The notes beneath the pieces were generated by a model. That model was given only the letters and a program-made list of their open reading frames with translations. It did no database searches and was not told where the DNA came from. The position numbers and the translations under genes were made by a program. From a virus, in IMG/VR virus record IMGVR_UViG_3300047300_000894, positions 1 to 61,976 of that record: a stretch of 61,976 nucleotides of DNA; one strand, written 5' to 3'. Each line of letters opens with the position of its first letter. Position 1 is the stretch's first letter. Below, one piece after another: positions 131 to 61,976 of this stretch.

Positions 131-823
131 TTACCATTTGTCTGGGATTTGAATTTCAAAACTTGTTTGGTTTACTTGTGCTGTAGTAGGCTGATTAGAT
201 GATGTTGGTATTTCATCCTCCCAAACCCGATGACCGATGTACCTCTCAGGGTCTTTCCGATAGGTAGGGTCTGGTCTTAACTCTTTGTACTTCGGAATGG
301 CTATTAAGATGGCATCTTTTTCAGACTCTTTTAATTTCATCCATTTAGCCTTCGCCTTCTCTTTGCCTACCTTCTTTCCGTACAAATCCCAAAACTCTTC
401 GAATCGGTCATTAATTACTTTTTTATTCTCTTTAATATTAACTTTATTATATGGTGATTGTATAGCATCACCCCCCTGATTGCCCGCAATCACCCCCCCT
501 GATTGTATAGCATCACCCCTTTTGGCTTCGCTTTCCTCTTTTAGTAGGGATAAATCAACTATTTTAATCATTCTGCTACCAAAATCGCCCGAACTTTTTA
601 GTGATGCTTCTCGTGTAATTAAATTCTTTTCTTCCAACTCTTTTATTAGTGATCGTACATACGGAATAGACATCCCTAATGTATCAGCGATATACTGATT
701 CGAAGCAAAGCAATAGCCATTCTTATTAGACAAACTAATGAGAACTCCAACCAATAACTTTGCACTCGAAGACAACTCCTTACTCGAAAGAACTTCCGTA
801 GGAATTATTGCATACCACTTCAT
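131..823 (-). CDS. Winged-helix phage replication initiator (lambda O / DnaD-like role)
   Basis: This 230-residue protein has an N-terminal winged-helix region (about residues 15-75, including NQYIADTLGMS and VRSLIKELEEKNLITR). A low-complexity linker (about 100-125) follows, then a C-terminal segment with FWDLYGKKVGKEKAKAKW and DPERYIGHRVW, a pattern I associate with phage replication initiators. On the circle it lies 17 bases upstream of the DnaB gene, so the pair resembles lambda O and P: it would bind the origin and recruit the helicase. The linker is encoded by a block of DNA repeats (455-519), as lambda ori lies inside O. Its ATG overlaps the upstream stop (TAATG), which suggests translational coupling. 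The role is inferred; the fold is fairly secure. Confidence 0.7.
   Translation of the reverse strand: MKWYAIIPTEVLSSKELSSSAKLLVGVLISLSNKNGYCFASNQYIADTLGMSIPYVRSLIKELEEKNLITREASLKSSGDFGSRMIKIVDLSLLKEESEAKRGDAIQSGGVIAGNQGGDAIQSPYNKVNIKENKKVINDRFEEFWDLYGKKVGKEKAKAKWMKLKESEKDAILIAIPKYKELRPDPTYRKDPERYIGHRVWEDEIPTSSNQPTTAQVNQTSFEIQIPDKW
455..519. repeat. Iteron block inside the initiator gene (candidate origin)
   Basis: A 20-base direct repeat (TGATTGTATAGCATCACCCC) lies at 455-474 and 500-519, period 45. Between and overlapping the copies are two dyads of the form ATCA-C6/7-TGAT (467-480 and 489-503). On the coding strand these read ATCA-G6-TGAT. The block is in frame and encodes the linker of the initiator. 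A similar element sits at 11259-11313. Repeats within the initiator gene are the classical arrangement of a lambdoid origin, so binding by this initiator is a reasonable inference. Confidence 0.65.
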
Positions 824-1026
824 TATAAACTATTTTGTTCGGCTTCTAAAAATTTAATTTCTCCAACTAACTCTTCAATTTTATTGAGAATAATATCGAA
901 CGCTGACATTTCTGGAGATGCATATTGCATAACCTTCTCCCATTGTGCTAAATCAATCTTGATATGTGCAATCTTTACCTTGCATATAACCCTAAATGCT
1001 TGCTTTTCTATTTCTTCTAAATCCAT
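823..1026 (-). CDS. Small helical protein of unknown function, first gene of the replication operon
   Basis: This 67-residue protein begins MDLEEIEKQAF and is rich in charged and hydrophobic residues in a helical pattern (ending in KIEELVGEIKFLEAEQNSL). I chose the ATG at 1026. A longer reading from a TTG at 1101 would run through the stem-loop at 1031-1070. The stop overlaps the ATG of the initiator gene (TAATG). The gene lies behind a promoter and a terminator-like hairpin, so it may be expressed conditionally. I do not recognise the family. Confidence 0.65.
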   Translation of the reverse strand: MDLEEIEKQAFRVICKVKIAHIKIDLAQWEKVMQYASPEMSAFDIILNKIEELVGEIKFLEAEQNSL

Positions 1027-1030
1027 AGCG

Positions 1031-1070
1031 AAAAAAAACCCCAAGACCTTTGAGGGAAAGAATCTTGGGG
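1031..1070 (-). terminator. Intrinsic terminator in the leader of the replication operon (possible attenuator)
   Basis: Read on the minus strand, a perfect 8-bp stem (CCCCAAGA / TCTTGGGG, with a 16-base loop) is followed by eight T residues and ends 5 bases before the ATG at 1026. It lies downstream of the promoter at 1131-1163. The loop contains TCCCTCAA, which is complementary to TTGAGGGA in the upstream leader (plus-strand positions 1102-1109 and 1050-1057). A second small hairpin (ATAGG / CCTAT) lies at 1071-1086. The shape is that of an attenuator, but regulation is not demonstrated. Confidence 0.7.
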
Positions 1071-1130
1071 ATAGGATTTTACCTATTTGTTTCGAGTACA
1101 ATCCCTCAATTGAACTCCAAACTTGGTTTA

Positions 1131-1163
1131 CAAATATAATACAATTAATTTATTCTTTCACAA
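1131..1163 (-). promoter_or_regulatory. Bacteroidota-type promoter for the replication operon
   Basis: On the minus strand, TTG (1163-1161), a 22-base spacer and TATATTTG (1138-1131) fit the TTG-N17-23-TAnnTTTG pattern known for Bacteroidota. The predicted start would be near 1125, giving a leader of about 100 bases. The -33 element overlaps the end of the upstream gene. Confidence 0.5.
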
Positions 1164-1438
1164 CTAATTACATTCATAATTGGAATTCCTATCGTTCGTG
1201 TTGAATCAGTAGGATTAGAAAAGATTAATGTTCTATAGTCATCTGTTGCCTCAAGGTACATAGAAACGATTTCTGCATCCCTGTTACCCAATTTATACAC
1301 GACTCTGAACTTATTAATTCGCAACTTCGATTCCGTAGTTAGTTCACGAATGTTTACATTGTGATTCTTGATAGCGTAGATTGGTTTCAATACACCACTA
1401 ACTGATAAATAATTTTGAGCAATTGTTCTGTTTGACAT
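1145..1438 (-). CDS. Protein of unknown function, 97 residues
   Basis: It begins MSNRTIAQNYLS and looks like a mixed alpha/beta soluble protein, with no membrane segment and no cysteine pattern apart from a single Cys near the end. It is the last gene of the run from 5835 down and is 4 bases from the upstream stop, so it is co-transcribed. The promoter of the next operon overlaps its 3' end. No family recognised. Confidence 0.65.
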   Translation of the reverse strand: MSNRTIAQNYLSVSGVLKPIYAIKNHNVNIRELTTESKLRINKFRVVYKLGNRDAEIVSMYLEATDDYRTLIFSNPTDSTRTIGIPIMNVISCERIN

Positions 1439-1442
1439 AATA

Positions 1443-1934
1443 TTAATTTTTTTTAAGTTTTAAAAGTAAATCTTGTGGATTATCCTTTTCGGTAAATCCG
1501 TACACCCTACCATTTAAATCCCAATGGTAGCACTCATTTGTTCCCTCCCTAAAGGATAGCCATCCAATAATCTGATGACCTTTAGATGCATCGGGATTAA
1601 TTCCACCTATAACTACGGGTTTTAACTCCTTTGTAATTACATCGTAGTATCCCATATCGTACTTCTCTTTGGTGAACTTATACAACCCATTCTTTTTGCT
1701 AACTCCCTTCTCAATGTTCCGTAGTAGCCTCAATCTATCAGATTGATAGGCTGATAAAAACCCCATCACCGATTGAGAGATAGTTAAAGGTAGTTCGCAT
1801 TTCTCGCAAGGCATACTCATCTTCTTGCGATTACTATTAGTAAACAACTTCACTAATTCTTCAGCATTCTGATCGTGTCCACACCATCCACACTTTAATT
1901 TGTGCCTCCGTAAAATATTACTGAATTCTGCCAT
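1443..1934 (-). CDS. Zinc-ribbon-like protein of unknown function
   Basis: This 163-residue protein has CGWCGH at residues 16-21 and CEKC at about 43-46, a four-cysteine arrangement likely to bind one zinc ion. The rest contains GWLSFREGTNECYHWDLNGR and ends in a lysine-rich tail, with no catalytic motif that I recognise. It overlaps the upstream membrane-protein gene by 17 bases. A nucleic-acid or protein-binding adaptor is possible, but this is a guess from the cysteine pairs alone. Confidence 0.65.
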   Translation of the reverse strand: MAEFSNILRRHKLKCGWCGHDQNAEELVKLFTNSNRKKMSMPCEKCELPLTISQSVMGFLSAYQSDRLRLLRNIEKGVSKKNGLYKFTKEKYDMGYYDVITKELKPVVIGGINPDASKGHQIIGWLSFREGTNECYHWDLNGRVYGFTEKDNPQDLLLKLKKN

Positions 1935-2172
1935 ACTTTGTTGTGCTTTTATGTGTTAATGTTAAACAACCTGTTGTTGCATCTACATAGCTGGAATCAA
2001 AATTATCTACCCATTCATCTGCTGAAGGATTTAGTACAATTGCCCTTGAATTGCTGTACCTAATCAAGCTAATTGGCTGTGACTTCAATGATATCCCAAA
2101 CCAAATCATAATTGTAGCGACCAATGTAATAACAAATGCTACTGCCTTAAAAACCCCTTCCTTATCTTTCAT
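1918..2172 (-). CDS. Small single-pass membrane protein
   Basis: In this 84-residue protein, residues 9-28 (KAVAFVITLVATIMIWFGIS) form a strong membrane segment after a short charged N-terminus. The C-terminal 55 residues are polar and would probably face the periplasm or the cytoplasmic surface. It belongs to a cluster of three tiny membrane proteins (1918-2475) in the early block. Host-envelope modification or superinfection exclusion is a possible role; nothing in the sequence proves it. Confidence 0.6.
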   Translation of the reverse strand: MKDKEGVFKAVAFVITLVATIMIWFGISLKSQPISLIRYSNSRAIVLNPSADEWVDNFDSSYVDATTGCLTLTHKSTTKYGRIQ

Positions 2173-2371
2173 TTTTCTTTCCCGTTATGTGTGCTGCGAA
2201 TAAAAATGTCGGCAAACAAACTATTATTGATGCCAATAAATTCTCCTTATCAAATTGATTGTCCGTAAATGGTATCAAACAAAATGCTACGGCAGTTATA
2301 CTACCCGATATAATTTTTAAGTCTTTCATAAAATTGTTCCTTAATGCCATATGATTGTTCGTTAATTTCAT
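2162..2371 (-). CDS. Small two-helix membrane protein
   Basis: The longest reading is 69 residues with two hydrophobic stretches (KIISGSITAVAFCLIPF and LLASIIVCLPTFLFAAHITG) and a basic tail, GKKNER. The start is uncertain. A near-exact repeat (CATATGATTGTTC, twice around 2350-2382) encodes the first residues, and the internal ATG at 2329 (MKDLKIISG) would give a more typical membrane-protein start. It overlaps the next gene by 11 bases. Confidence 0.55.
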   Translation of the reverse strand: MKLTNNHMALRNNFMKDLKIISGSITAVAFCLIPFTDNQFDKENLLASIIVCLPTFLFAAHITGKKNER

Positions 2372-2382
2372 ATGATTGTTCC

Positions 2383-2475
2383 TTAATAGATTACTAATAA
2401 AAAATAGGCAACTGCGACAAAAATTAATCCCAATCCCAATTCCAAATAGTCACTCGTAGTTACTTGCTTTTTCAT
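2383..2475 (-). CDS. 30-residue membrane peptide
   Basis: This short frame opens with MKKQVTTSDY and continues into a single hydrophobic helix (LGLGLIFVAVAYFLLVIY). Its ATG overlaps the stop of the upstream gene (TAATG at 2475), which supports real, coupled translation. It is one of three adjacent tiny membrane proteins. The function is unknown. Confidence 0.5.
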   Translation of the reverse strand: MKKQVTTSDYLELGLGLIFVAVAYFLLVIY

Positions 2476-2726
2476 TATTTTTTTGTGATTTCAAATTTAA
2501 CTGCTTGTGCTGATCCATCTTCAGCATCCTCAATTTCAACTAAAAGTTCTCCATCATATGTAAATCTGATGTCAAACACTCGATGACCTAAAGAGAATGG
2601 ATACCATACCACTCCGAAATCATATGGAGAGAATACAACTTCTGTTCTCTCCTCTTTGCCTTCAATCCTTGCTGATATTTTAGCAACCATAGTGAACGGA
2701 TTCACCGATACATTAATCTTTGTCAT
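2475..2726 (-). CDS. Small beta-rich protein of unknown function
   Basis: From the ATG at 2726 the protein has 83 residues (MTKINVSVNPF onward), alternating hydrophobic and charged residues as in a beta-sandwich. An ATG at 2759 would add 11 residues, but it lies deeper in the upstream gene and lacks the A-rich, AAGGAA-containing leader found before 2726. No family recognised. Confidence 0.55.
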   Translation of the reverse strand: MTKINVSVNPFTMVAKISARIEGKEERTEVVFSPYDFGVVWYPFSLGHRVFDIRFTYDGELLVEIEDAEDGSAQAVKFEITKK

Positions 2727-3129
2727 TTCCTTGAAATTTAATTTTTGAATTTGGTTCATCTACGATAAATCCAGTTATAAGATTTTGAATTAACATCTGT
2801 TCTGCTATTTGATGTGCTTGTTGTAATGGCATCTTGATTGAACGACAACCCTTCTGTACCATCTCTGTCATAACATTCACATCATTGTAGTATACATCTA
2901 CCCAATCGGCTAAATATCGATTACTTCTTGACAGATTAAACCAATAATCGAATCCCTTTTCCGACAAATCAAACACAAAAGATTGTGCCATAAAATGCTG
3001 AAATGATGTAGCCTTTGTTTCAAGAAATCTCTCTAATGAAAATCCTACATTTTGCTTATGGTACTCTGCTTCCCATAATGCTCGTTCCTCGTAAGTTAAG
3101 AGGTCATAAAAATCTTTTTTCGTACTCAT
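2713..3129 (-). CDS. Helical protein of unknown function, 138 residues
   Basis: It begins MSTKKDFYDLL and is rich in aromatic residues and predicted helices (YFDYWFNLSR-like pattern around residues 60-70). There are no membrane segments or cysteine clusters. The start is preceded by the AACCAAACA box (minus strand, 3143-3135), shared with many genes of this phage. A 90-base gap upstream contains the direct repeat GTAGACGAA twice and a GGGATCAG motif like those in the 6 kb repeat region, so this may be the start of a sub-operon. Confidence 0.6.
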   Translation of the reverse strand: MSTKKDFYDLLTYEERALWEAEYHKQNVGFSLERFLETKATSFQHFMAQSFVFDLSEKGFDYWFNLSRSNRYLADWVDVYYNDVNVMTEMVQKGCRSIKMPLQQAHQIAEQMLIQNLITGFIVDEPNSKIKFQGNDKD

Positions 3130-3219
3130 TTTATTGTTTGGTTAAATTTAAAATTAAAAAATTGCGTTTGGGATCAGTCTATTGCGTAGACGAAATGACC
3201 AATTTTGTAGACGAATAAG

Positions 3220-3867
3220 CTACAATACAGCTCCCCATTGTTCTGCCATAGCATCAGCTATGCCTTGAAATGTCTTGCTCCTTAATCCTCTCCGTTCTTC
3301 GGGAGACTTCGCTTTCTGCAATGCTTCGTAATACCACATCGCTTGCCTTTTAGGTTTCCCTGTTTTGCCATCTATCCATTCCTTGAACTCGCCTTTATCT
3401 ACCATATTTGTTGGCTCTAACTTCGGTAAGTTCTTTAACCACAAACAAGTAGACTTGCTCGCTGAATCGCCAAACCAATATGGCTGAACGATTTGGTCGG
3501 GTTTCCGTAGCTTGGATGAAATAACGCTTATGGGGTTCTCAATAGCTATTCGTGGAATGTCTGCCATCATCAGCTTGTAGACAAACAATAACGCTTGTCG
3601 CTGATTCTCATACCTCTCCTCGTTAGGACTCCCATCTTTATTGTACAGATGCCTTGCTCCACTTACGGACAGATATGTACAAGGGGGATGTGCAATCATT
3701 AAATCCCAACCTTTGTCGATAACTTCGAACACATCTTGTTGGTAATGCCATTCGGGATGCCCCCCACTACAAGGTAGGATGTCGCAACTAAATGCCTCAA
3801 ATCCCAATTTTCTAAATGCTAATGTTACAGCTTGACTCTCTTCGCAAGCAACTAATACTCTCTTCAT
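3220..3867 (-). CDS. Phage C5-cytosine DNA methyltransferase-like protein
   Basis: This 215-residue protein begins MKRVLVACEESQAV (the SAM-binding start of the family). It has the catalytic-loop motif HPPCTYLSVSGAR (Cys at about residue 62) and IENPIS (about residue 110), corresponding to motifs I, IV and VI of C5 methyltransferases. It is shorter than a typical Dcm (over 300 residues) and has no evident large target-recognition domain, as in a compact family common in phage genomes. It could protect phage DNA from host restriction. A second, different member lies at 53288. Target specificity cannot be read from the sequence. Confidence 0.75.
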   Translation of the reverse strand: MKRVLVACEESQAVTLAFRKLGFEAFSCDILPCSGGHPEWHYQQDVFEVIDKGWDLMIAHPPCTYLSVSGARHLYNKDGSPNEERYENQRQALLFVYKLMMADIPRIAIENPISVISSKLRKPDQIVQPYWFGDSASKSTCLWLKNLPKLEPTNMVDKGEFKEWIDGKTGKPKRQAMWYYEALQKAKSPEERRGLRSKTFQGIADAMAEQWGAVL

Positions 3868-3885
3868 AATATTTTTTAGGTTAGT

Positions 3886-4179
3886 CTAAATTTTAAATAA
3901 ATCGCCCAGTGGCTGATCGTGAACTGCTTCAATAATTTTATCGTGAACCTCCTTGATAGCTTGTTGCTCGCCAACAATTCTGTTACGATTGGCATACTTG
4001 ATTAGCCATTCCATCTGCTTTTCGGAAACTTCGCCCATCCAAAAATGGATATCGCAAATAGTTACGATAGCCTTGTCCTCTTGATTTGCATTACGATTCT
4101 TTGCGAACTTCTTAATCGTTTGTACATAACTGCTCTTTAATGAGGAATCTTTGCCCTCTAAAATCTCTCGTACATTCAT
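3886..4179 (-). CDS. Protein of unknown function, 97 residues
   Basis: It begins MNVREILEGKDSSLK and is predicted to be helical and charged, with HFWMGEVSEKQMEWLIKYAN in the middle, a stretch resembling small phage recombination or replication accessory proteins only in general character. It lies between the methyltransferase and another unknown gene with very short spacers, in one operon. Confidence 0.6.
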   Translation of the reverse strand: MNVREILEGKDSSLKSSYVQTIKKFAKNRNANQEDKAIVTICDIHFWMGEVSEKQMEWLIKYANRNRIVGEQQAIKEVHDKIIEAVHDQPLGDLFKI

Positions 4180-4181
4180 AG

Positions 4182-4535
4182 TTATATAAATCTGATTGTG
4201 TAATTACTTATAAATAAATCTCCACTATTATGCTCTCGCTGAAAGCCCTCTAAAGACCATACATTTCCATCTTCTTCGGACATAGCGATAAACTCCTCAT
4301 CCGAATACAAGCTATGATGCTTTGTAAACATACCATCATCTACTGCATACACCCGTACTTCTTTAGGACTCTCAATCCCTTGTGCAACTTGCTCGATAGC
4401 ATCAATCATATCTACGATATGCTTATCGACTGATTCTTCCTCATCGTATTCAGATACTTGAGTAATCCATTCTTGTGCCTCGTATAAATGCACAAGCAAT
4501 TCTTCTCTGCTAAATTTTTCTGTTGAATTTTCCAT
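4182..4535 (-). CDS. Acidic protein of unknown function, 117 residues
   Basis: It begins MENSTEKFSREEL. The N-terminal half is helical and strongly acidic (EYDEEESVDKHIVDMIDAIEQV); the C-terminal half looks beta-rich (FISNYTIRFI at the end). Acidic early phage proteins are often inhibitors or DNA mimics, but I see no specific signature. It is 2 bases upstream of the next gene in an operon. Confidence 0.6.
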   Translation of the reverse strand: MENSTEKFSREELLVHLYEAQEWITQVSEYDEEESVDKHIVDMIDAIEQVAQGIESPKEVRVYAVDDGMFTKHHSLYSDEEFIAMSEEDGNVWSLEGFQREHNSGDLFISNYTIRFI

Positions 4536-4547
4536 TTTGATTATTAA

Positions 4548-4898
4548 TTAAGAATATGAACTATAAGATTTAGTAATTAAAATATCATTAAAAAAGTTTT
4601 CTAATGTTACGATATCCATTTCATAGATATACTTGCCATCAGCTTGGTCTCCATCTAAATATTCAAGATAAAAATAGATTGTCTTTCCTTCCCCTTCGTT
4701 ATGGAAATCTAACCATTCGACTTCGAATGCAGTAACCATATAAACATCTTCAACTTCAAATGGCTGATTAATCAAATATTCTCCAAACAGATTATTGTAA
4801 TTTACACACGACATAATATCCTCATTAAGCTCCTTCCTAATTTGTGATATTTTCATTTTGTACAAATCTTTCTTTGTAAGCAAATTCTCGTTTTCCAT
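4548..4898 (-). CDS. Acidic protein of unknown function, 116 residues
   Basis: I start it at the ATG at 4898 (MENENLLTKKDLY). A longer frame begins only with TTG. The central part (VTAFEVEWLDFHNEGEGKT) and the C-terminus are rich in Asp, Glu and aromatic residues. It is in the same operon as its neighbours and has similar acidity, but no recognisable domain. Confidence 0.6.
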   Translation of the reverse strand: MENENLLTKKDLYKMKISQIRKELNEDIMSCVNYNNLFGEYLINQPFEVEDVYMVTAFEVEWLDFHNEGEGKTIYFYLEYLDGDQADGKYIYEMDIVTLENFFNDILITKSYSSYS

Positions 4899-4993
4899 TC
4901 TATTATGGTTTAAAAGTTTACAATACAATACCCTATGAATTGCGAATCGACAAACAAAAACTCATCGTTTACATTTGTGCAAAAATCCCCAAC

Positions 4994-5128
4994 CTATTCG
5001 TAGCCTAACTTATGTAGGCAACAGAAATCAGAAAATTGATTTGGTGTGAACTCTTTGCCTTGTGCATCATCAAGGATTTTTCTATCCACATTACTTGGGT
5101 TTCCGATAATAATCATTGTCTTTTTCAT
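4994..5128 (-). CDS. 44-residue protein of unknown function
   Basis: This short frame begins MKKTMIIIGNPSNVD and contains DDAQGKEFTPNQFSDF, ending LHKLGYE. An A-rich leader (AAACGAAATGAA) precedes the ATG. It fills most of an otherwise empty 233-base gap between two genes of the same strand, which supports it. No family recognised. Confidence 0.5.
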   Translation of the reverse strand: MKKTMIIIGNPSNVDRKILDDAQGKEFTPNQFSDFCCLHKLGYE

Positions 5129-5161
5129 TTCGTTTATTTCGTTTATAGGTTAAAATCTGTG

Positions 5162-5398
5162 TTAGTTAAATTTTAATGTAACATTTGATGTATCTACATC
5201 TCCGTAGCTATCCAATTCATACTGCTGTCCCTCCACTAATACTTCTTCGGGAATGTAACCTACATTATCTAATAGGTCTTCCAACTTAATCGTATATACC
5301 TTATCGATTATTAGGGATTCTATAACTAATGATGTGAAATCGATATCATCGTTATACCAATTCAAGAATTTTACTCGGTCAATAATTAAAGTTTTCAT
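5162..5398 (-). CDS. Acidic protein of unknown function, 78 residues
   Basis: It begins MKTLIIDRVKFLNWY and is rich in Asp and beta-forming residues. The end, SYGDVDTSNVTLKFN, weakly resembles the end of the upstream 136-residue protein (TEVDSNYG), so the two may be distant paralogues or simply share composition. It has an A/T-rich leader and sits in an operon. Confidence 0.55.
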   Translation of the reverse strand: MKTLIIDRVKFLNWYNDDIDFTSLVIESLIIDKVYTIKLEDLLDNVGYIPEEVLVEGQQYELDSYGDVDTSNVTLKFN

Positions 5399-5424
5399 TT
5401 TGATAAAAATTTAAGGGTTAAAAA

Positions 5425-5835
5425 TTAGAATCTACTTCCGTAATTGGAATCTACTTCTGTGAATTGTATTGAGATATTATCTGATGATGCATCTGCTCCA
5501 ACTACCTCACATATATCTTCCCAATATGTATCTCTCCTAAAATCATCTGCATACAGATTTAGAATATTTACCTTCTTTGGGGATTGAGGAACAAACATCT
5601 TATACTCCTCATTCAAGAATTCATATGCTTCAATCTTCTCATCGGTAGACATCGCAAACCATTCGAATCTTAAATCGGTAATAATCTCCTCGATTTCCTC
5701 ATCTGTGCGATTAGACATAAGAGATAACACATCCTCTTGATGTATCTTACTTAACGCTCCGTACGGCATACATCCGTACCACTCGTTTAACTTTGTGTTT
5801 AAATCCTCGTAGGACTGGTGAATTGAACTTTTCAT
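5425..5835 (-). CDS. Acidic protein of unknown function, first gene after the repeat region
   Basis: This 136-residue acidic protein begins MKSSIHQSYEDLN and has predicted helices (RTDEEIEEIITDLRFEWFAM, DEKIEAYEFLNEEY). It is the promoter-proximal gene of the run 5835-1145 and follows the 1 kb non-coding region directly, so it is probably among the earliest proteins made. No family recognised. Confidence 0.6.
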   Translation of the reverse strand: MKSSIHQSYEDLNTKLNEWYGCMPYGALSKIHQEDVLSLMSNRTDEEIEEIITDLRFEWFAMSTDEKIEAYEFLNEEYKMFVPQSPKKVNILNLYADDFRRDTYWEDICEVVGADASSDNISIQFTEVDSNYGSRF

Positions 5836-5889
5836 AACTTTTAAATTTTGATTGTTTTGTTTATGACTGGTGTCTGGTTAAATGACATA

Positions 5890-5920
5890 CAATATTAAAA
5901 CATTAGATTTAAAATTGCAA
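5890..5920 (-). promoter_or_regulatory. Weak candidate promoter for the 5835-1145 genes
   Basis: On the minus strand, TTG (920-918 of the 5 kb block), a 20-base spacer and TAATATTG (5897-5890) fit the TTG-N19-TAnnTTTG pattern with one mismatch in the -7 box. The position is right for the gene starting at 5835. Confidence 0.3.
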
Positions 5921-6100
5921 CAATATATTAGGAAAAACTTTAATATCTGTGACTTTTCTCGCATAAAATCCATTCATACTTCACGCAATACGCATTTGGG
6001 ATCTGATATTTTATGTAAATTTTAGTGACAAAATTTTTAACCTGTACCAGAGAAATTCATCCAGCCAGCTCGCCTGCACCAGCCCTGCAGGAGTCAATAA

Positions 6101-6549
6101 AAATTTTTAGACTCGCCTAAAAAAGTCTTTTCAACTTGGTCGGTTCACCAGCTCTGTACCAGTGAGTAACTTACATTTCACCTACATTTTACCTACTTAA
6201 TCAAATTTTGCATTCGGGTTCGGTCGTTGTTGATAGTGGTTTTGGTTTTTTGGCGATTTCCCCTGTTTCACCAGAAAAAATTTGGGATCTGTGACCTGTA
6301 TCTTGCAGAAATAATTTTAGACTCGCCTAAAAAACTTTATTGATTTAACCTGTATTTGCACCAGATGGGATCTTTTGTGATCATGAACTTCGCCAGCTGG
6401 GGTGCCTGTACCAGAGTAAAAGAAATTTTTAGACTCGCCTAAAAAATCTTTTGATGGGATCCGTTTTGCCCAGAGGGATCAGACCTGTAAAAATCAAATT
6501 TAACCTGTAGCCAGAAATTTTAAGAAATTTTTAGACTAACCTAAAAAAT
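6101..6549. repeat. Four interspersed hairpin repeats TTTTTAG-N6-CTAAAAA
   Basis: Copies lie at 6101-6124, 6313-6334, 6423-6446 and 6525-6549. Each is a palindrome (TTTTTAG / CTAAAAA arms; the second copy has a 6-bp arm) around a conserved ACTCGC (ACTAAC in the fourth). The centres are about 210, 112 and 102 bases apart. Each copy is preceded by a CCTG..CAG motif and an A-rich stretch. CCTGTA followed by (C)CAG occurs about eight times between 6040 and 6590, forming composite modules. Confidence 0.85.
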
Positions 6550-6583
6550 CCTTGAAATCTAACCTGTATCCACCAGAAGAAAA

Positions 6584-6641
6584 CCTGTGTGATCAGAATC
6601 CTTGCAAAAAAATCTGTGGGATCAGAATCCTTGCAAAAAAA
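6584..6641. repeat. Tandem pair of about 28-base repeats
   Basis: Two adjacent copies of CTGTG(T/G)GATCAG followed by AATCCTTGC and an A run (6585-6612 and 6614-6641) differ at one base before the A tract. They sit between the hairpin array and the iteron zone. The A tracts could give intrinsic bending. Confidence 0.85.
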
Positions 6642-6744
6642 AAACAAATGATTAATCAGATTATCAGCAATTAATGACATCTAATCCCTTGAGAATCGAT
6701 TATATGGATAGAATGTGATGTTGGATGCTGATATCTTGATTCTA

Positions 6745-6835
6745 AACGATTGTAGGATGCAGTAGAACGATTATGATGCTACAGAAGAATGATTGTGATG
6801 TCGTAGCAGATTTGTTGTTGATAGTGGAAACGATT
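6745..6835. repeat. Iteron zone with helically phased AACGATT boxes
   Basis: AACGATT occurs at 6745-6751, 6766-6772 and 6829-6835, with AATGATT at 6788-6794. The spacings are 21, 22 and 41 bases, close to 2, 2 and 4 helical turns, so the boxes lie on one face of the DNA. Boxes 1-3 are followed by GATG-containing sequence. This looks like a binding array for a phage DNA-binding protein; which one is unknown. Confidence 0.6.
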
Positions 6836-6844
6836 GCATAGGGC

Positions 6845-6876
6845 AAAAAAAATCCCCCACATTTCTGTAGGGGATT
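6845..6876 (-). terminator. Intrinsic terminator of the amidoligase operon
   Basis: On the minus strand, AATCCCC-type arms (6851-6857 with 6870-6876, a 12-base loop) are followed by eight T residues. It lies 20 bases after the stop of the amidotransferase gene, so it closes the operon 9839-6897. Confidence 0.8.
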
Positions 6877-6896
6877 CTGTAATCAATGAGATGGTA

Positions 6897-7751
6897 TTAG
6901 ATGCAATACCATTTTAGATTCTCCATCTCTTCCCATTCGGAATCAGTCAATGATGCTACATCTTTAGACTTGAGATAGTCGTATCTCTCTTGCCATTCAT
7001 CATAGATAGCATCATCCTCATCTTGGCTATAGTATTCGTACCATTTCTTATCATTAGCCTTAAGGTCATCCTTAAATGGGATTGTAGGATTATTCTCTAC
7101 CTTCGGATAATGCACGATGGTTTGTATAGCTTGTTTGGTGTATGTCGGTTTGACATTGTTGTATACCTTCTTGCCACCATAATCAATATAGTTAACCTTC
7201 TTGTATGTAGCATTAGAAAACCAACATCCTTCGAATTCATCATCTCTTTGACCTAACTGCTCATTGACAATCGTGTATTCATTATAGGCATTCAAGAAGA
7301 TTAGCTTACTGCTACCAATGAACTTTTTGATAAGACCAATGATTGCATCATTGTAAAGGAAATCAGATGGTAGCTTACGAAGATAGATTTCATTGAACAA
7401 GTTCGTATCTGACTTCTTTGCATCAATCCCATTCAGTTCACCAATCACTCCATTGTGAACGAATGCAATATCCTTGTTAACTTGGAATGGATGGCAGTTC
7501 GTTTCGTTTACTCCACCACTTGTGCTGATACGGAAATGTAGTACGACATTGGATTTCGGGAAATCTCTTCTGACCTCAACATATTTGTTGTAGAATGCCT
7601 CAAAGGATTTGACCTCTTTGAAGATATGTAATTGATTGTTTGAAACATCTGTCCAAATCATCCCTCCACCATCTCTGTTGTTATCCCAACAATTTTTGAT
7701 AAGAGATTTTTCGAATGTAACATTTGGGGAATTTAAAATTGCGATACACAT
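6897..7751 (-). CDS. Class II glutamine amidotransferase (Ntn-hydrolase)
   Basis: This 284-residue protein begins MCIAIL, so removal of Met would expose Cys2 as the N-terminal nucleophile that releases ammonia from glutamine. Other family features are NRDGGGMIW (25-33), the glutamine-site HFRIS (72-76), FVHNG (97-101, oxyanion hole) and SDTNLF (114-119). The C-terminal third is not recognisable and may be partner-specific. No sugar-isomerase or synthase domain is fused, so it needs a separate acceptor enzyme. The gene just upstream, an amidoligase, is the obvious partner: the ammonia would feed its ligation reaction. It is terminated at 6845-6876. Confidence 0.85.
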   Translation of the reverse strand: MCIAILNSPNVTFEKSLIKNCWDNNRDGGGMIWTDVSNNQLHIFKEVKSFEAFYNKYVEVRRDFPKSNVVLHFRISTSGGVNETNCHPFQVNKDIAFVHNGVIGELNGIDAKKSDTNLFNEIYLRKLPSDFLYNDAIIGLIKKFIGSSKLIFLNAYNEYTIVNEQLGQRDDEFEGCWFSNATYKKVNYIDYGGKKVYNNVKPTYTKQAIQTIVHYPKVENNPTIPFKDDLKANDKKWYEYYSQDEDDAIYDEWQERYDYLKSKDVASLTDSEWEEMENLKWYCI

Positions 7752-7793
7752 AATATTAATTGTTTTGATTGTTTAAAAAATTGATTTGTTAAT

Positions 7794-7816
7794 GGGGAGA
7801 TTGCTCTCCCCTTTTT
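7794..7816 (+). terminator. GC-rich hairpin between the amidoligase and amidotransferase genes
   Basis: GGGGAGA-TTGC-TCTCCCC is a perfect 7-bp stem followed by TTTTT on the plus strand, although both flanking genes are on the minus strand. For plus-strand (antisense) transcripts it is a good terminator. In the minus-strand mRNA it is a stem without a U run, just after the amidoligase stop, where it might protect an upstream mRNA segment or partly lower downstream expression. Confidence 0.6.
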
Positions 7817-7819
7817 GGT

Positions 7820-9514
7820 TTATAATGAACGAATTGCTGAACGAAGATTTGTGAAATCATATGTTGCACAATCTCTGTCGAAATCAAGTGCCATATCGAT
7901 TGAATCTAACATTCTTCTCTTCAGTTTATCAAGAGTAAAAATCTTGAGCATATGCTTGTGTAAATCAGATGAAGAATCACATAACATATTCGCCACTTCG
8001 ATGAATGAATCTGTTGGATTGTTTGCCATAATTCGTAACAATCCGATTCGCCATTCCAATGTCTTGATATTCTCTACCAATGGAAAGATTCTGAATTCGA
8101 TTCTCTTGTCCATAATCTTAACTGCTTGGTATTTTGTGTTTACAGAACTCTTCATTCTGTACTTCTCTTTTGCCTCACAATATGTGATGTTAATTCTCTT
8201 CTTGTAGATGGCATAGAACAATGGCATATATCCACTAATCATCTCAAATGTATCTTGTCCACTTGTGTAACTTCTGCTGAAATGGATGTGACCACCACAA
8301 GCTTCCTTGAATCTGCCCAAGTTTGCCTTGTCCTCATTTGAGTCAATCAAGTTAGGGAATCTTGTCTCAATTGCTTTTGCCTCATTGATAAGGTCATCAG
8401 TAAACAATGGATAACAAGGTGATACCAATTCGTATCCGATTGTATCATCAAGACTGCCATCTCTTTCCTTCTTCCATCCGAATTCGTGATAGATTTCATT
8501 TGCTCCATTAACTGCTCCCAATCGTGATTGTTTTTCAATCTCTACACCAATCTTGAATACAACATTCATTGGCATATTGATTGTCTTCACTTGTTGCGAT
8601 GAATGATAACCGAAACGCTCATTTCTAAAGTTACGAGATGCACAATCTACCATATCGTGCGATGCATCTACATCTCTTCTGCAATGTGAACAAAAGACTT
8701 GTGTATATCCATTTGCCACAGCAGATTCTCTGTCGAAATATCTTTTGCCATTGTGCATTGTATTGCGAAATTCTCTGTTGATATTCACCAATTCTGCAGT
8801 TACTTGCAATGGTACAATTTCACCTTCATTGAATCTCCACAATCTTCTTGATTCCATATAGAAATTAACCAATACACCATCCAACATTGTATGAAATTCT
8901 GTCGCAGAATCGATGTGAATTAATCTGTCGCTGTAGGCATCCACTACCAATGAACGATGTGTATTCTGATAGTAAATTGGCAAAGAGAATGAACTAACTT
9001 GTGCCATTCTGATGTAGTCATTTGCATCAACATATGATGGCGAATTGTAGCTACCATTTCTGCTGTATACATATTTCCAATCAGATTCATTCGTACGAAC
9101 TAATCTCAAATCTCCCCACATATTTCTATCAGCTACCTTAAGGTCAATCCATCTGAATTCATCCATTGACCAAACAAATCCCGCATTAAATCGCTGAACT
9201 TCCGAACGGAATGTGTATGTCTTCCCATTGTATTCGATTTGAACTACGGGACTATTACTTGCAGTCAAGGATGCTTTTGAGATGTAATCCCCTCCACCAT
9301 TTGGTGAACGATGGATTCTCAATGCATCTGTCTTCAACACATATGTTGTTTCCCAATCCAAGCCATTCCAATTGGAACAAGCTACGATTTTCTTTTGCTC
9401 ATTTGAATCAGCGACATACACATAATTGTATCTGCTGAAGATTCTGCCATCCATCAATTGCGATGATTCATTTGCATTGATTACTTCCCCGAAGATTGTT
9501 GTTACTTGTGACAT
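7820..9514 (-). CDS. Glutamine-synthetase-fold amidoligase (Amidoligase_2-like)
   Basis: This 564-residue protein has the amidoligase pattern in its C-terminal half: GVEIE (323-327), RDGSL (351-355), ELVSP (362-366), CGGHIHFS (406-413) and RIEFRIFP (471-478). These correspond to the metal/ATP-binding acidic, His and Arg residues of the predicted peptide-ligase branch of the glutamine synthetase fold. Residues 275-291 (C-x2-C, H286, C291) may bind zinc. The first 270 residues look beta-rich and may select the substrate. It would join a carboxylate to an amine or ammonia using ATP. The downstream amidotransferase is a likely ammonia donor. The substrate is unknown: a host or phage protein, or cell-wall material. 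The motif order makes the family assignment strong. Confidence 0.8.
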   Translation of the reverse strand: MSQVTTIFGEVINANESSQLMDGRIFSRYNYVYVADSNEQKKIVACSNWNGLDWETTYVLKTDALRIHRSPNGGGDYISKASLTASNSPVVQIEYNGKTYTFRSEVQRFNAGFVWSMDEFRWIDLKVADRNMWGDLRLVRTNESDWKYVYSRNGSYNSPSYVDANDYIRMAQVSSFSLPIYYQNTHRSLVVDAYSDRLIHIDSATEFHTMLDGVLVNFYMESRRLWRFNEGEIVPLQVTAELVNINREFRNTMHNGKRYFDRESAVANGYTQVFCSHCRRDVDASHDMVDCASRNFRNERFGYHSSQQVKTINMPMNVVFKIGVEIEKQSRLGAVNGANEIYHEFGWKKERDGSLDDTIGYELVSPCYPLFTDDLINEAKAIETRFPNLIDSNEDKANLGRFKEACGGHIHFSRSYTSGQDTFEMISGYMPLFYAIYKKRINITYCEAKEKYRMKSSVNTKYQAVKIMDKRIEFRIFPLVENIKTLEWRIGLLRIMANNPTDSFIEVANMLCDSSSDLHKHMLKIFTLDKLKRRMLDSIDMALDFDRDCATYDFTNLRSAIRSL

Positions 9515-9554
9515 AGTTTTAAAATTTTGATTGTTTATGGATTAGTTTAGCTTA

Positions 9555-9839
9555 TCAGTTTTGAGATGCATTATCGATGAAATAATCGAATTCGAATTCT
9601 TCTCTCCATTCGTGAATGGTTTGTTCATCCTTGAATTCTTGCCCATTGTATGTGGCAGTCATTGGTACATCTTCTGCCTTGTCGGATGACAACATCAACA
9701 AGGTGATTCCGTTCATTGTAACCCATCCAATTACACAGATGATTGCTTCAGCGAATGCATTGTGATAGATGCTGAAGAATGACATTGGTAGAAAGATTTG
9801 AGATGCTACCAAGATTGCGATTGTTTCTAACTTTTTCAT
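9555..9839 (-). CDS. Two-helix membrane protein, first gene of the amidoligase operon
   Basis: I start it at the ATG at 9839 (MKKLETIAILVASQIF) because the operon promoter (9957-9986) lies inside any longer frame. The 94-residue protein has two membrane segments (about 5-25 and 32-50) and an acidic cytoplasmic or periplasmic tail (EWREEFEFDYFIDN). Its place as leader of a three-gene operon with amidoligase and amidotransferase suggests it localises the system to the membrane or acts on the envelope; this is inference. No family recognised. Confidence 0.65.
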   Translation of the reverse strand: MKKLETIAILVASQIFLPMSFFSIYHNAFAEAIICVIGWVTMNGITLLMLSSDKAEDVPMTATYNGQEFKDEQTIHEWREEFEFDYFIDNASQN

Positions 9840-9956
9840 TTTGTTTGAATTTAAATTGTTTATGATTTGATTGATTTTGCCATTCGGGATGCTACACTGG
9901 AAATTGTCATTTGGTGAATCTGTTGACCTTGCAGTTTTGCCATCTCTTACGACATT

Positions 9957-9986
9957 CAAATATAACACAAATGATTTAATTTACAA
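9957..9986 (-). promoter_or_regulatory. Strong Bacteroidota-type promoter for the amidoligase operon
   Basis: On the minus strand, TTG (9986-9984), a spacer of exactly 19 bases and TATATTTG (9964-9957) match the consensus fully. Transcription should begin near 9950, about 110 bases before the ATG at 9839. The leader carries a TAAATTCAAACAAAATG-type A-rich start region. Confidence 0.75.
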
Positions 9987-10527
9987 GGGATGTTTGCAGA
10001 TAAATTTTACCTATGCTATAGGTGATTTGTGGTGGCAGATTTTGGTGGGAAAAAATTTTGCTTTCTTGTACCTATGTGATATCGGATTGATGTGGTTATG
10101 GTCTTTTGTTTTATCGGTTATGTTCGAACGGATTGTTCGTTCTCTCCTTGTGTACGATGGGGCAAAAAATTTGAGACATTGTAGGGATCAGACACAAACC
10201 AGTGTTAAAACATTTGTATGAGATCGCAGTAAAATGTGGCTTCAGACATTGGAAATTAGGTTTTTGGATTGCAAAAGCGAAACCCACTCACTTCGGAATT
10301 CTGATTTCGCGAATTTGGTTGACCGGATCCCAATAATATATATAACCCTAAGAGCATAAGCCTACGCTACAAAAAAATAAACACATAGCAAACATAAGCA
10401 CTCGTTACTCGCTACACTTAATCCTTGCCACTACAGACAACTTAAATACATATGCCGACACAACATATCATTTAAGACAAAAATCTTTGCTTACAATCAA
10501 ATGCTATGAAAATTGCTAATAATGCTA

Positions 10528-10535
10528 TAACTTTG
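10528..10535 (+). promoter_or_regulatory. Candidate -7 box at the head of the plus block
   Basis: TAACTTTG matches TAnnTTTG and lies 27 bases before the ATG at 10562. No well-spaced TTG is visible upstream (the nearest gives a 12-base spacer), so an activator may be needed. The AACCAAACA box (10545-10553) follows near the predicted mRNA start. Confidence 0.4.
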
Positions 10536-10561
10536 GATTTATATAACCAAACAGAATAATT

Positions 10562-11209
10562 ATGCTATCATACGAGCTTACTCAAGCATCGCCCAACTCT
10601 TTGATTGTAGAGATTGGTGCACAGTACGATGACACAGTTCAATATGGGTCATTGCAAATATTTATAGACCCTTTATTTAAACCCACACACAACGCAAGGA
10701 TATATGGAATTGTTAAAGCAGTACCTAAAGGAAAGTGCTATAATGAGGATGGTTTTGAAATTGAAACAGATGTACGGGTGGGTGACAAAGTATACTTCCA
10801 CTACCTTGCTACATTCGATGAGAATGCTTGTGTATATGGTAACTATTATCGCATTCCTTACTGCTGGATTTTTTGCGTTGTCAGGGACTCTGATATTATA
10901 CCTATTGGTGGGTGGACGTTCTGCGAGAAGATTGTTGAAAATGAAGATGAATTTGAGGAGGTAGAGGTTGATGGAATAAAGATTTCAGCGGTCAAAAATT
11001 CTTTTGGTCTCATTACATCTGTCGCAAAAAAAGACTCGATTAAGAAGGCAAGATTAGCACATATTGGGAAACCATTAAAAAATGTTGATGCACTTGATGT
11101 GAAAGCAGGTGAAATTGTTGTAATAGATAAGAATACAAACTTTGAAAATGTGATTGAAGGAAAAACCTACTATACGATACGCCAAGGTGATATTTTATGT
11201 AAAAACTAA
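10562..11209 (+). CDS. GroES-like beta-barrel protein (possible co-chaperonin)
   Basis: This 215-residue protein contains VRVGDKVYFHY and IYGIVKAVPKG in the first half, and ends with KAGEIVVIDKN...GKTYYTIRQGDILCKN, which follows the GroES pattern (gate-keeping barrel with a final xxxxDIL). Two barrel-like halves are possible. Phage GroES analogues such as T4 gp31 adapt the host chaperonin to fold capsid proteins. A position just before packaging and capsid genes fits that role. The match is by pattern only; the mobile loop is not obvious. It is preceded by the AACCAAACA leader. Confidence 0.45.
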   Translation: MLSYELTQASPNSLIVEIGAQYDDTVQYGSLQIFIDPLFKPTHNARIYGIVKAVPKGKCYNEDGFEIETDVRVGDKVYFHYLATFDENACVYGNYYRIPYCWIFCVVRDSDIIPIGGWTFCEKIVENEDEFEEVEVDGIKISAVKNSFGLITSVAKKDSIKKARLAHIGKPLKNVDALDVKAGEIVVIDKNTNFENVIEGKTYYTIRQGDILCKN

Positions 11210-11263
11210 AACATTTGTAGATGCTTCTATACAATCACTAAAACATTTGTAGATGCTTCTATA
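11205..11263. repeat. Perfect 27-base tandem repeat before the terminase genes
   Basis: A 27-base unit (ACTAAAACATTTGTAG, then ATGCTTCTATA) occurs at 11205-11231 and 11237-11263 with a 5-base spacer (period 32). Both copies end in CTATA, which joins the iteron CTATAnnATCA. The 13-base core TAAAACATTTGTA is also found at 10206-10218. Confidence 0.9.
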
Positions 11264-11313
11264 GCATCAGGGGGGTGATTGCCCGCCATCAGGGGGGTGA
11301 TTCTATAGCATCA
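11227..11313. repeat. G6 quasi-palindromic element upstream of the terminase (second copy of the initiator-gene element)
   Basis: CTATAnnATCA occurs at 11227-11237, 11259-11269 and 11303-11313. Two dyads ATCA-G6-TGAT lie at 11266-11279 and 11288-11301, separated by TGCCCGCC. The arrangement reproduces the 455-519 block. The elements align best in opposite plus-strand orientation, which means that the G-rich strand is the coding strand at both sites. This is a candidate second initiator-binding site, or a site linking replication to packaging. Confidence 0.7.
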
Positions 11314-11430
11314 CCATAATATTAAATATAATATAAGACTTAATATAAAAAAGTATATGCTCAATTTTTTTTTGAGATAAGAAAAAAAGGGTTTATCCCT
11401 AAAAGATGAAAAAGAAAAAAGGTTAAGTTT

Positions 11431-11476: not shown

Positions 11477-12040
11477 ATGGCATTATTTTTAGATACTGAC
11501 TTTGATGATTTAACACTTAATGTGTTGGATAAAAACCTTAATAAGAATCCACTTGTTAAGCAGATATTTGGTGAAGGAGTTTCATCGATGGATTTGAATA
11601 TTATTAAGTACATAGTTTTGCTATACGATGTCAAGTCTCCATTAAGATTGAAGATACCTGATATTATTAACAGAAAGGAGGAGTGTGCAGAGATGGTTGG
11701 GTTGAAGTCGGGTCGTGAAGAATTATTTGATTTAAGCCACCCAAAAGTATTGGGGTATATAAACCAGTACCTACGATATCAATCGTCGAAGGTGTGGTCA
11801 GTATTGATGGCTAACGAGGAGGTACTGTGGCAGTATCAGAACGAACTGTTAACTCCGATTACACAGTTCAAGACCGACAAAGATAAACTACAAGCACTTG
11901 AGATTAAGTCAAAGTTGATGGCTGAATGCGATGCTATTATTAAACGCATTGAGTCGTATGAGGAGAAGTTATTTGGCGACAACAAGGAGAAGAAGGATCA
12001 GATATTAAATATGACCCCCGAAGCAATAGCAAATGTATAG
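11477..12040 (+). CDS. Putative small terminase subunit (by position)
   Basis: This 187-residue, mostly helical protein contains IIKYIVLLYDVKSPLRLKIPD and a long C-terminal helix (TDKDKLQALEIKSKLMAECDAIIKRIES). It overlaps the terL gene by 8 bases, the usual place of terS, and its size fits. I do not see a clear helix-turn-helix, so the call rests on position. The start is the first ATG after a CAAACAAGATATAG leader, a variant of the AACCAAACA box. It would recognise packaging DNA, perhaps the repeats or GC-rich block upstream. Confidence 0.5.
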   Translation: MALFLDTDFDDLTLNVLDKNLNKNPLVKQIFGEGVSSMDLNIIKYIVLLYDVKSPLRLKIPDIINRKEECAEMVGLKSGREELFDLSHPKVLGYINQYLRYQSSKVWSVLMANEEVLWQYQNELLTPITQFKTDKDKLQALEIKSKLMAECDAIIKRIESYEEKLFGDNKEKKDQILNMTPEAIANV

Positions 12041-14042
12041 AGAGCATAAGAATTGTAAGAAGTTAGAAATCAATGGGATTACAGTTAATATACCTCCTAT
12101 TGGTATGGTATATAATGTCCTAACGAATGCGTGGGAGAAGAGAGAACCTATTAAGCGTTCGATGCGTAAGGAGAATCAATATTGGGAACGACAACAACCT
12201 CCAAAAGATTATGAACAAAAACGAAAGAAAGAAATTTCTACACAAAAGCAGAACCCAGACTACTACAACCCCGAACTGCAAAACTACCGTAACCAAGAGT
12301 GGGATAGAAGACTTAATGGTTTTTGGTTTTATAATAATGGTCACGCTACTTATATTACTGGTCTGCATTACTTTTATTTAACACATTGGAAGCTTGATGT
12401 TGGATACCCAGAATTTAGGATGACCGATGTTCACTTTTTTTACTTTTTGGAATACTGTATCCAAGACCCACGCAGTTTGGGGATGATTGAGGTGACAAAG
12501 CGTCGCCAAGGTAAGACTATGCGGGCGGGGGCTTTTTTATTTGAGCTCACATCCAGAAGTAAGAATAAAAATGCGGGTATCCAATCAAAGACATTTGAAG
12601 ATGCAAAAGAGCAAGTCTTTCAAAAGGGGGTGATTATGCCATTTAAATACCTGCCCGATTTTTTTGTACCAATTTACGATACAGAAAAGGGTATGACACC
12701 CAAAGGTGAGCTTCGTTTCTTCAAGACAAATAAGCGTGGTGCTGTAGAAGACAACTTTGATAAGAAAATTGAATTAGAATCAACTATAACTTTTAAATCT
12801 TCTGATAAATTTTCTTACGATGGAACGAAACTGCACCGATACCTTGCCGATGAGGCGGGTAAGACTAAAAATGTCGATGTATACGAAAGACACCAAGTTG
12901 TTCAATTCTGTTTACAACAGGAAGAACATATTATTGGCAAAGCGTTATACACGACAACAGTCGAGGAGATGGAAGATGGTGGTGCTGCGTTTAAACGACT
13001 TTGGATGGCATCTGACCAGCAACAGCGAGATAAGAATGGAAGAACTATGTCTGGTCTTTATCAATATTTTATGCCAGCATATAAAACGCTTTATTATGAC
13101 AAGTATGGGTTTGCTGACGAAGAAAGAGCGAAGGAACACTATATGAATGCCCGTGAAGCGTTGATGAGTGACCCAAGAGCTTTGGCTTCATATATCCGTA
13201 AGAATCCATTTACTATTGAGGAGGCGTTCTTCAGCGAAGGGGAGACTTGTTTGTATGATGCAATGGCAATTAACAGACAACTTGAATCGATATCGTGGAT
13301 TGACAAAAAAGAACTATATTTGCGTGGAGAATTTATTTGGGATGGAGGAGTTCGGGATTCCAAAGTTGTGTTTAAAGAGTCGTCTAATGGGAAGTTTCTT
13401 GTTTTAAAAGAAGCAAAGCCATTTGATACGGATGCTTACAACCAAGTAGAGGAGTTTGGGACTAAAAAGATTCCCAAGGCAAAGACTAAGTACGCAATCG
13501 GAGTTGACCCCTTCGACCATTCAATCACAACAAGTAATGAACGCTCTGATGGAGCAGCATACGTCTATAGGCGTTTTGATGCAACAGATGAGTTGAGCGA
13601 AACATTCTTGGTGGAATATTTGAACAGACCTGACAAGGCAGAAATATTTTACGAGGATATGATTAAGCTCTGCCATTTCTTTGGTTGTGATATTTTATCG
13701 GAGGATCAAAAGATTGGATTGATTAAGTATTTTGAGTACCGTGGGTATGAGAAATTTTTAGTTAAAATGCCGAATTCGACAAAGTACGGTATTTCTGCAA
13801 GCACAAAGGTGCATCAGCAGATAGCAGAGGAGACAGAAAGCTATGTGATGGATAACTTACATAAAGTAAAATTTCCAAATCTTTTAGAGGACTGGTTGCA
13901 CTTTGATATAAAAAATACTACTAAATTTGATGCGGCAATGGCAAGTGGTTACACTTTAATTTCTGCGAGTAAATCAAAGTTTGCCCAAAAGATTGAACAA
14001 CAACAAAAACTATATGAAATACGAGATGTATTTCCGTTTTAA
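12033..14042 (+). CDS. terL: Large terminase subunit (TerL)
   Basis: This 669-residue protein has an ATPase domain with Walker A KRRQGKT (156-162) and a Walker B-like RYLADEA (269-275, D273 E274). The C-terminal RNase H-fold nuclease has AIGVDP (488-493, metal-binding D492), an acidic pair in ILSEDQK (about 554-560) and FDAAMA (about 633-638). It cuts concatemeric or circular phage DNA and pumps it into the prohead through the portal. The length is normal for the family. It overlaps the upstream gene and is 2 bases from the portal gene, so the three are translated together. Confidence 0.92.
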   Translation: MYREHKNCKKLEINGITVNIPPIGMVYNVLTNAWEKREPIKRSMRKENQYWERQQPPKDYEQKRKKEISTQKQNPDYYNPELQNYRNQEWDRRLNGFWFYNNGHATYITGLHYFYLTHWKLDVGYPEFRMTDVHFFYFLEYCIQDPRSLGMIEVTKRRQGKTMRAGAFLFELTSRSKNKNAGIQSKTFEDAKEQVFQKGVIMPFKYLPDFFVPIYDTEKGMTPKGELRFFKTNKRGAVEDNFDKKIELESTITFKSSDKFSYDGTKLHRYLADEAGKTKNVDVYERHQVVQFCLQQEEHIIGKALYTTTVEEMEDGGAAFKRLWMASDQQQRDKNGRTMSGLYQYFMPAYKTLYYDKYGFADEERAKEHYMNAREALMSDPRALASYIRKNPFTIEEAFFSEGETCLYDAMAINRQLESISWIDKKELYLRGEFIWDGGVRDSKVVFKESSNGKFLVLKEAKPFDTDAYNQVEEFGTKKIPKAKTKYAIGVDPFDHSITTSNERSDGAAYVYRRFDATDELSETFLVEYLNRPDKAEIFYEDMIKLCHFFGCDILSEDQKIGLIKYFEYRGYEKFLVKMPNSTKYGISASTKVHQQIAEETESYVMDNLHKVKFPNLLEDWLHFDIKNTTKFDAAMASGYTLISASKSKFAQKIEQQQKLYEIRDVFPF

Positions 14043-24267: not shown

Positions 24268-24268
24268 T

Positions 24269-54444: not shown

Positions 54445-54817
54445 ATGATAAAATGTGAAATACTAACTGATAATTTTTCTTACCCATTGTTTCATCGGGG
54501 TAAATTTCGATTCCCTTGCAGAACTTTTTAGAGTCATCAATAATGTAATGAGCCTTCTTCATAGTATCCTCAAGAATTTTAACCATAGGAATAGTGTTGC
54601 TCGCATCTAATCGGCTATTAAAGTAGAGGGTGATCATATACTTGTCTACTTTTTTAGTTCGTTTAGGGAGTAGCTTTAGGAATAGATTTGCCCAAAACTC
54701 TTTCTCTTTATTTCGGAAAGACCAGTGGCGATTTGCGTACCACTTATTTAAGGACAAATCTACTCCCTCCCATTCTATTGTAAAACTATCAATCGCCTCG
54801 TTCGTATTAGTTGTCAT
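54410..54817 (-). CDS. RusA-like Holliday-junction resolvase
   Basis: This 135-residue protein has LSLNKWYANRHW at the start of the fold, RLDASNTIPMVKILEDTMKKA (the D.SN..K..ED helix pattern) and HYIIDDSKKFCKGIEIY (the paired Asp of the active site), characteristic of RusA. It cuts four-way DNA junctions during replication or recombination and prepares branched DNA for packaging. The length is normal for the family. It overlaps both neighbours. Confidence 0.75.
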   Translation of the reverse strand: MTTNTNEAIDSFTIEWEGVDLSLNKWYANRHWSFRNKEKEFWANLFLKLLPKRTKKVDKYMITLYFNSRLDASNTIPMVKILEDTMKKAHYIIDDSKKFCKGIEIYPDETMGKKNYQLVFHILSYATKESKAYRS

Positions 54818-61962: not shown

Positions 61963-61976
61963 TAATGTGGGAAATT
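61850..61976. repeat. Terminal direct repeat (right copy), circularisation overlap
   Basis: Identical to 1-127; see the left copy. Joining the ends restores the intact intergenic sequence between the initiator gene (ends at 131) and the start of dnaB, which supports a genuine circle of 61,849 bases. Confidence 0.95.

Follow-up and report, generated by a model that had tools for sequence, protein, structure and literature searches.

The window, by which we mean the whole 61,976-nucleotide stretch of viral DNA analysed here (IMG/VR record IMGVR_UViG_3300047300_000894), contains two arrays of a short palindromic repeat, or iteron. The first array (S1) lies inside the gene of a putative replication initiator. 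The second (S2) lies in the intergenic space between a GroES-like gene and the genes for a TerS-like protein and the large terminase subunit, TerL (Table 1). The two ends of the record share 127 identical bases, so the simplest reading is a closed circular genome of 61,849 bp, on which S1 and S2 are 10.8 kb apart. A preliminary description had reported related elements at these two places. Both exist, and each is bordered by an AT-rich flank, but several particulars of the description had to be revised.

Two arrays in opposite orientation

In this phage the repeat unit is the 16-bp palindrome TGAT-N8-ATCA, with its register read through relatives. The preliminary description had taken the palindrome as ATCA-N6/7-TGAT, with G6/C6 homopolymers as cores. 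However, relatives show TGAT-N8-ATCA with the homopolymer as a spacer. The idea that the homopolymer is the conserved element was rejected, because these runs between the iterons have no constant length and are missing from most relatives. The iteron pitch is 22 to 23 bp, approximately two helical turns. S2 has three iterons at a 22-bp pitch and an outlying fourth 32 bp upstream, at 11222. When TGATTSTATAGCATCA was searched for at up to three mismatches, 10 of the 12 matches in the window were at S1 and S2; 1.8 matches were expected, and none of 100 shuffled sequences reached 12. There was no third copy of the array elsewhere in the circular genome.

The best alignment of S1 and S2 was antiparallel (initiator coding strand against S2 plus strand; 43 of 49 positions identical, score 31), whereas the parallel alignment scored 17. 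Therefore, S2 is an inverted copy of S1. This was one of two possibilities raised in the preliminary description; the other, that the dyad cores had been flipped, was rejected on the same scores. The likeness between the arrays extends into the AT-rich flank. The same iteron is translated in different frames within one array, which means that selection is on the DNA and not on the peptide. S2 was also considered as a gene remnant, and this was rejected because no frame was conserved across it in the 18 phages checked. The G-rich strand had been described as the coding strand in both places. This is true of S1, but S2 is intergenic; there, the G-rich strand is the one on which the neighboring genes are coded. 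GC skew, which had been proposed as a check, was computed but rejected as an origin map; it tracks gene direction and cannot tell S1 from S2.

In several relatives, the interval between S2 and the TerS-like gene (window positions 11376 to 11476) has a short hairpin, for example, GGAGCTTGCTCC or GAAGCTTGCTTC. The sequence of the hairpin arms differs among relatives, with complementarity kept.

Joint change of the arrays among relatives

We assembled 31 records with a closely related TerL (L016 to L046), 25 of which encode a relative of the window initiator (P0001). Added to these were G026, G027, and G028, which were found by using an array as bait and match by construction; G041, from among wider initiator relatives; and later G031, because its first locus had no DNA upstream of TerL. 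G020 and G029, which have the array on a contig without the initiator, and G034, which has no DNA upstream of TerL, were kept outside the count. This made 30 of the 33 clade records testable, with the window included. A search for the element in relatives had been suggested by the preliminary description, and a second array was present upstream of TerL in all 30. Full-genome scans, done for six of six genomes, found no second array anywhere but upstream of TerL. The distant TerL relatives G036 to G039 were not used, because their matches were other proteins sharing only the C-terminal domain.

The iterons differ widely between phages, yet S1 and S2 agree within one phage. The closest relative, G001 (initiator 80% and TerL 96% identical), has TGCTACTATAGTATCA iterons both in its initiator gene and upstream of TerL, and G002 has TGATAGCGGGGTATCA in both arrays. 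We scored this agreement by matching the initiator linker to the 1,700 bp before TerL, after thinning the phages at 85% initiator identity. For 25 phages (19 representatives), the mean score was 31.1 with the phage's own sequence and 13.0 with that of other phages, a difference reached in 0 of 200,000 permutations. With the five additions (30 phages, 23 representatives), the mean scores were 30.9 and 12.6, again with 0 of 200,000 permutations. In 18 of the 23 representatives, no other score in the row was higher than the own score (ties allowed), and 28 of 30 own scores exceeded 19, the largest score between phages with initiators less than 45% identical. The best match between S1 and S2 was antiparallel, as in the window, in 24 of 25 phages.

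The agreement survives replacement of the initiator. G012, G017, and G032 have TerL proteins that are 77 to 78% identical and initiators that are only 28 to 35% identical. Their boxes are different, and both arrays go with the initiator. The window initiator has no relative at all in G026, G027, and G028, and here the array served as a prediction test. The array before TerL was used as bait and led to a twin on the opposite strand, inside an unrelated gene 8.1 to 11.5 kb from TerL. That gene encodes a Lin1244_N domain (PF14297; E values of 5.3e-11 to 9e-14) and matches phrog_2562, a replication initiation family. The G028 protein does not align with the window initiator. In G028, the one phage checked, the Lin1244_N gene is followed by a DnaB gene whose product is 56% identical to the window DnaB. 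The packaging side alone pointed to an unrelated initiator gene, and the array can be used as a handle for such genes.

The flanks also switch class, being dominated by A/T in the O-like phages and of the AAAGTAAAGG type in the Lin1244_N phages, at both sites. In five of six phages with a replaced initiator, the own tail scored 21, 25.5, 21, 28, and 26, against 14 or less for other classes. In the sixth, G032, the own tail (25.5) was equalled by that of another class, G017 (26.0). Meanwhile, the genes on either side stay homologous throughout. In all 12 related records examined, identity was 49 to 91% for the GroES-like protein and 62 to 91% for the TerS-like protein (the G023 and G025 sequences are partial). 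S2 therefore changes as a whole while its neighbors stay.

Possible roles of the second array

Because both arrays and their flanks switch with the initiator, one initiator very likely acts at both S1 and S2. The preliminary description had suggested this, along with the idea of a second origin, and the joint switching strongly supports it. Replication and packaging are probably linked through this one protein.

S1 would be the primary replication origin. Initiator dimers would bind the palindromic iterons within their own gene, the AT-rich flank would open, and the phage DnaB would be loaded. The preliminary description had placed S1 where a lambda-type origin would be, and this agrees with lambda, in which the annotated iterons (39034 to 39118) are within O (38686 to 39585), at the corresponding place between two initiator domains and also approximately two helical turns apart. 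Unlike the window phage, lambda has no second array that we could find. A host polymerase probably copies the phage DNA, because no DNA polymerase was recognized among the 31 window proteins scanned.

S2 is probably a complete, noncoding, inverted copy of the origin (iterons plus unwinding flank) that heads the packaging genes and is bound by the same initiator. We consider it complete because boxes and flank are both kept and both switch, whereas an operator or a titration site needs only the boxes. Our preferred interpretation, which we think somewhat better than an even prospect, is that S2 is a second, late origin or a fork barrier at the packaging end. This is favored by the switching of boxes together with flank and by precedents in Bacillus phage SPP1 and Vibrio phage ICP1. 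S2 would act late, like SPP1 oriR, as a second start, a fork barrier, or both, and would turn theta replication into concatemer-forming replication beside the packaging start.

The closest precedent is oriL and oriR of SPP1 with the initiator G38P (PMC6316719, PMC3485210). SPP1 belongs to a different lineage. In both phages one origin is in the initiator gene and the other is intergenic among late genes, with direct repeats and an AT-rich element at each. The SPP1 origins are 12 to 13 kb apart on the circle, compared with 10.8 kb here, and both phages encode a DnaB-family helicase, an exonuclease, and a Holliday junction resolvase. Unlike in SPP1 as described there, the second origin of the window phage precedes the terminase genes, initiator families in its clade have been exchanged together with both sites, and a separate helicase loader was not identified. 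ICP1 is reported to have an early theta origin and a late rolling-circle origin near the packaging site, pac, so its late origin is also close to the packaging start (PMC7145576). The ICP1 late origin was inferred from read depth, and the accessible part of that account describes no duplicated initiator array.

Some observations weigh against S2 being a second origin that always follows the initiator. The own scores of G023 (17) and G035 (19) are not above 19, although their palindromes agree by eye. In 5 of the 23 representatives, the S2 of another phage outscores the own S2. G004 is a partial exception, with S2 half-sites TGCTAC/GGGGCA compared with TGTCCC/GGGGCA in S1; its S2 has half-sites resembling those of G035 alongside its own. 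In most O-like phages, the AT-rich tails taken alone do not identify the own partner (18 of 19 were used; G035 has no tail anchor). Finally, phages outside the clade with an array in the initiator gene mostly have no second copy, which means that a second site is no general need. The paired arrangement therefore characterizes this clade, as well as SPP1, and is not general to in-gene origins.

This last point comes from 48 of 80 loci of wider initiator relatives that were scanned, mostly short fragments without a second array, and from individual phages. No second copy was found in lambda, PM1 (two genes), B124-14, H6/1, BhaS-171, Vibrio 1.091, Lactobacillus c5, or elemoE, in which matches scored 15 or less; BhaS-171 and c5 have an in-gene array with other spacing. 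Second arrays were found at L181 and L172, which are clade members G041 and G031, and at the unrelated L196. Weak second-array matches occurred at L185 (16) and L205 (17). L196 has initiator iterons TTTGTCGAAATCAACAAA at L196:4165-4201 and L196:10127-10193, and it may represent an independent instance of an initiator site beside packaging genes. In L193, L195, and L197, part of an initiator-like linker recurs nearby as a direct repeat of at least 38 bp (scores of 32, 38, and 42). It is approximately 0.7 to 0.8 kb upstream of the initiator-like open reading frame and is perhaps a duplicated piece of the gene.

S2 could instead be an operator at which the bound initiator activates or represses packaging or late genes, with copy number or initiator level timing late transcription. 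S2 directly precedes the TerS-like gene, and after it come an AT-rich stretch and a recurring element that resembles TATATTGC. In L196, a TerS-like gene (phrog_2538, 2.8e-9) has two initiator iterons right against its start. Even so, we regard an operator as unlikely. Boxes alone would suffice for it, yet the flank, too, changes when the initiator class does. A promoter scan of positions 9900 to 11600, confined to the sigma-70-like type, found three sites compared with 7.2 in shuffled sequence, none of them on the plus strand. In addition, no second array was seen in seven relatives of L196 within the sequence examined.

It is improbable that S2 marks the packaging start, with the bound initiator directing terminase to pac or its vicinity. 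From the end of S2 it is about 160 bp to the TerS-like gene, a place where pac could be, and the late origin of ICP1 is reported to be close to pac (PMC7145576). However, pac must be recognized by terminase, and S2 varies with the initiator while the TerS-like proteins retain the identity given above. Contig ends in 13 near-full-length records were scattered and did not gather at S2, which is weak evidence because contigs of circular genomes break anywhere.

Titration and handcuffing are known behaviors of iteron plasmids, and an array of three or four iterons could tie up initiator and limit initiation at S1. We find this a shade less probable still, because it leaves unexplained both the class-specific unwinding flank and the fixed place before terminase. 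Least probable of all is a passive relic kept similar by recombination with S1; gene conversion could perhaps homogenize the two arrays, but S2 is retained at one place in all 30 testable phages, and the flanks of S1 and S2 differ by substitutions and indels.

To return to S2 as a late origin or fork barrier, it has kept its place across the lineage while initiators were repeatedly replaced, which is strong comparative evidence that these phages need a further initiator site close to the packaging genes. We also propose, more tentatively and as something just short of probable, that a dedicated late origin heads the packaging genes across the lineage. Every initiator exchange, even a nonhomologous one, would precisely rewrite its boxes and unwinding element and leave the neighbors unchanged. 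One protein would couple the initiator with entry into packaging, and copying from S1 to S2 would accommodate new initiators. The switch from circle to concatemer, and the reason that SPP1 has two origins, have been argued from very few models, and this clade supplies natural box swaps ready for experiments. A literature search found no crAss-like phages with iterons, no two origins associated with an initiator and a terminase, and no duplicate of this case, although this does not prove absence in print.

The initiator and its genomic setting

An AlphaFold2 model of the initiator (mean predicted local distance difference test score of 67) has an ordered winged helix-turn-helix domain at residues ~9 to 91, a predicted disordered linker at 93 to 137, and an ordered, helical C-terminal domain at 139 to 200. 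S1 codes for residues about 103 to 124. The closest structures by Foldseek were the plasmid Rep-DNA and initiator structures 5kbj, 4pt7, and 4pql, which share the predicted winged helix-turn-helix fold. These matches were low (target-normalized TM-score of about 0.5, 15 to 17% identity), and those proteins act in a plasmid context. Searching PDB sequences with the initiator profile returned weak MarR-type matches only.

Residue 54, where the recognition helix starts, varies with the box. Among phages with TGGT...ACCA iterons it is E, D, or Q (seven of seven), and among those with TGAT, TGCT, TGTC, or TGCC iterons it is P, A, V, or S (11 of 11), with kinship not controlled in either count. The comparison covered phages with callable TG-N12-CA 16-mers; G017 and G032 were excluded for their other box types. 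Within the group of G016, G022, G023, and G024, a change of residue 54 from E or D to S accompanies a change from TGGT to TGAT.

Table 1. Positions of the arrays, their flanks, and genes in the window
Feature	Position	Strand	Remarks
S1 (proposed origin 1), three 16-bp iterons	455-470, 477-492, 500-515	-	In initiator linker codons
S1 AT-rich flank, putative unwinding element	393..452	-	80% AT; within initiator gene
S2 (proposed origin 2), four iterons	11222-11237, 11254-11269, 11276-11291, 11298-11313	+	Intergenic, GroES-like / TerS-like-TerL
S2 AT-rich flank, putative unwinding element	11316..11375	+	88% AT; possible packaging-operon promoter may come next
Initiator, O/RepA-like, 230 aa	131..823	-	HTH_36 1.2e-14; phrog_270 replication initiation 7.4e-37
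GroES-like gene	10562..11209	+	Cpn10 4e-9; adjoins S2 on left
TerS-like gene	11477..12040	+	Right of S2; named by position, no family match
Terminase large subunit (TerL)	12033..14042	+	phrog_6681 1.5e-86
RusA-like Holliday junction resolvase	54410..54817	-	phrog_4632 1.6e-9
PD-(D/E)XK exonuclease	59185..59994	-	phrog_298 1.2e-20
DnaB-type helicase	60553..61974	-	DnaB_C 8.6e-66; next after initiator on circular map

The plus-strand late genes start at 10562 and run from the GroES-like gene through the TerS-like and TerL genes to the portal gene; the left-hand genes are on the minus strand. The window TerL shares 31% identity with its counterparts in Flavobacterium phage elemoE and kin, and it is weakly related to the terminases of crAss-type gut phages. 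The hosts of distant cultured relatives are Flavobacterium and Cellulophaga.

Three other features of the window were recorded. A 2-kb block at 24001 to 26000 has a GC content of 0.45 and a GC skew of 0.35, with a GC content of 0.33 to 0.39 in the rest of the genome. An open reading frame of 3011 aa (42390 to 51425) has a below-threshold match to a polyvalent-protein ADP-ribosyltransferase domain. Two genes, at 3220 to 3867 and 53288 to 53914, belong to the DNA methyltransferase family phrog_757.

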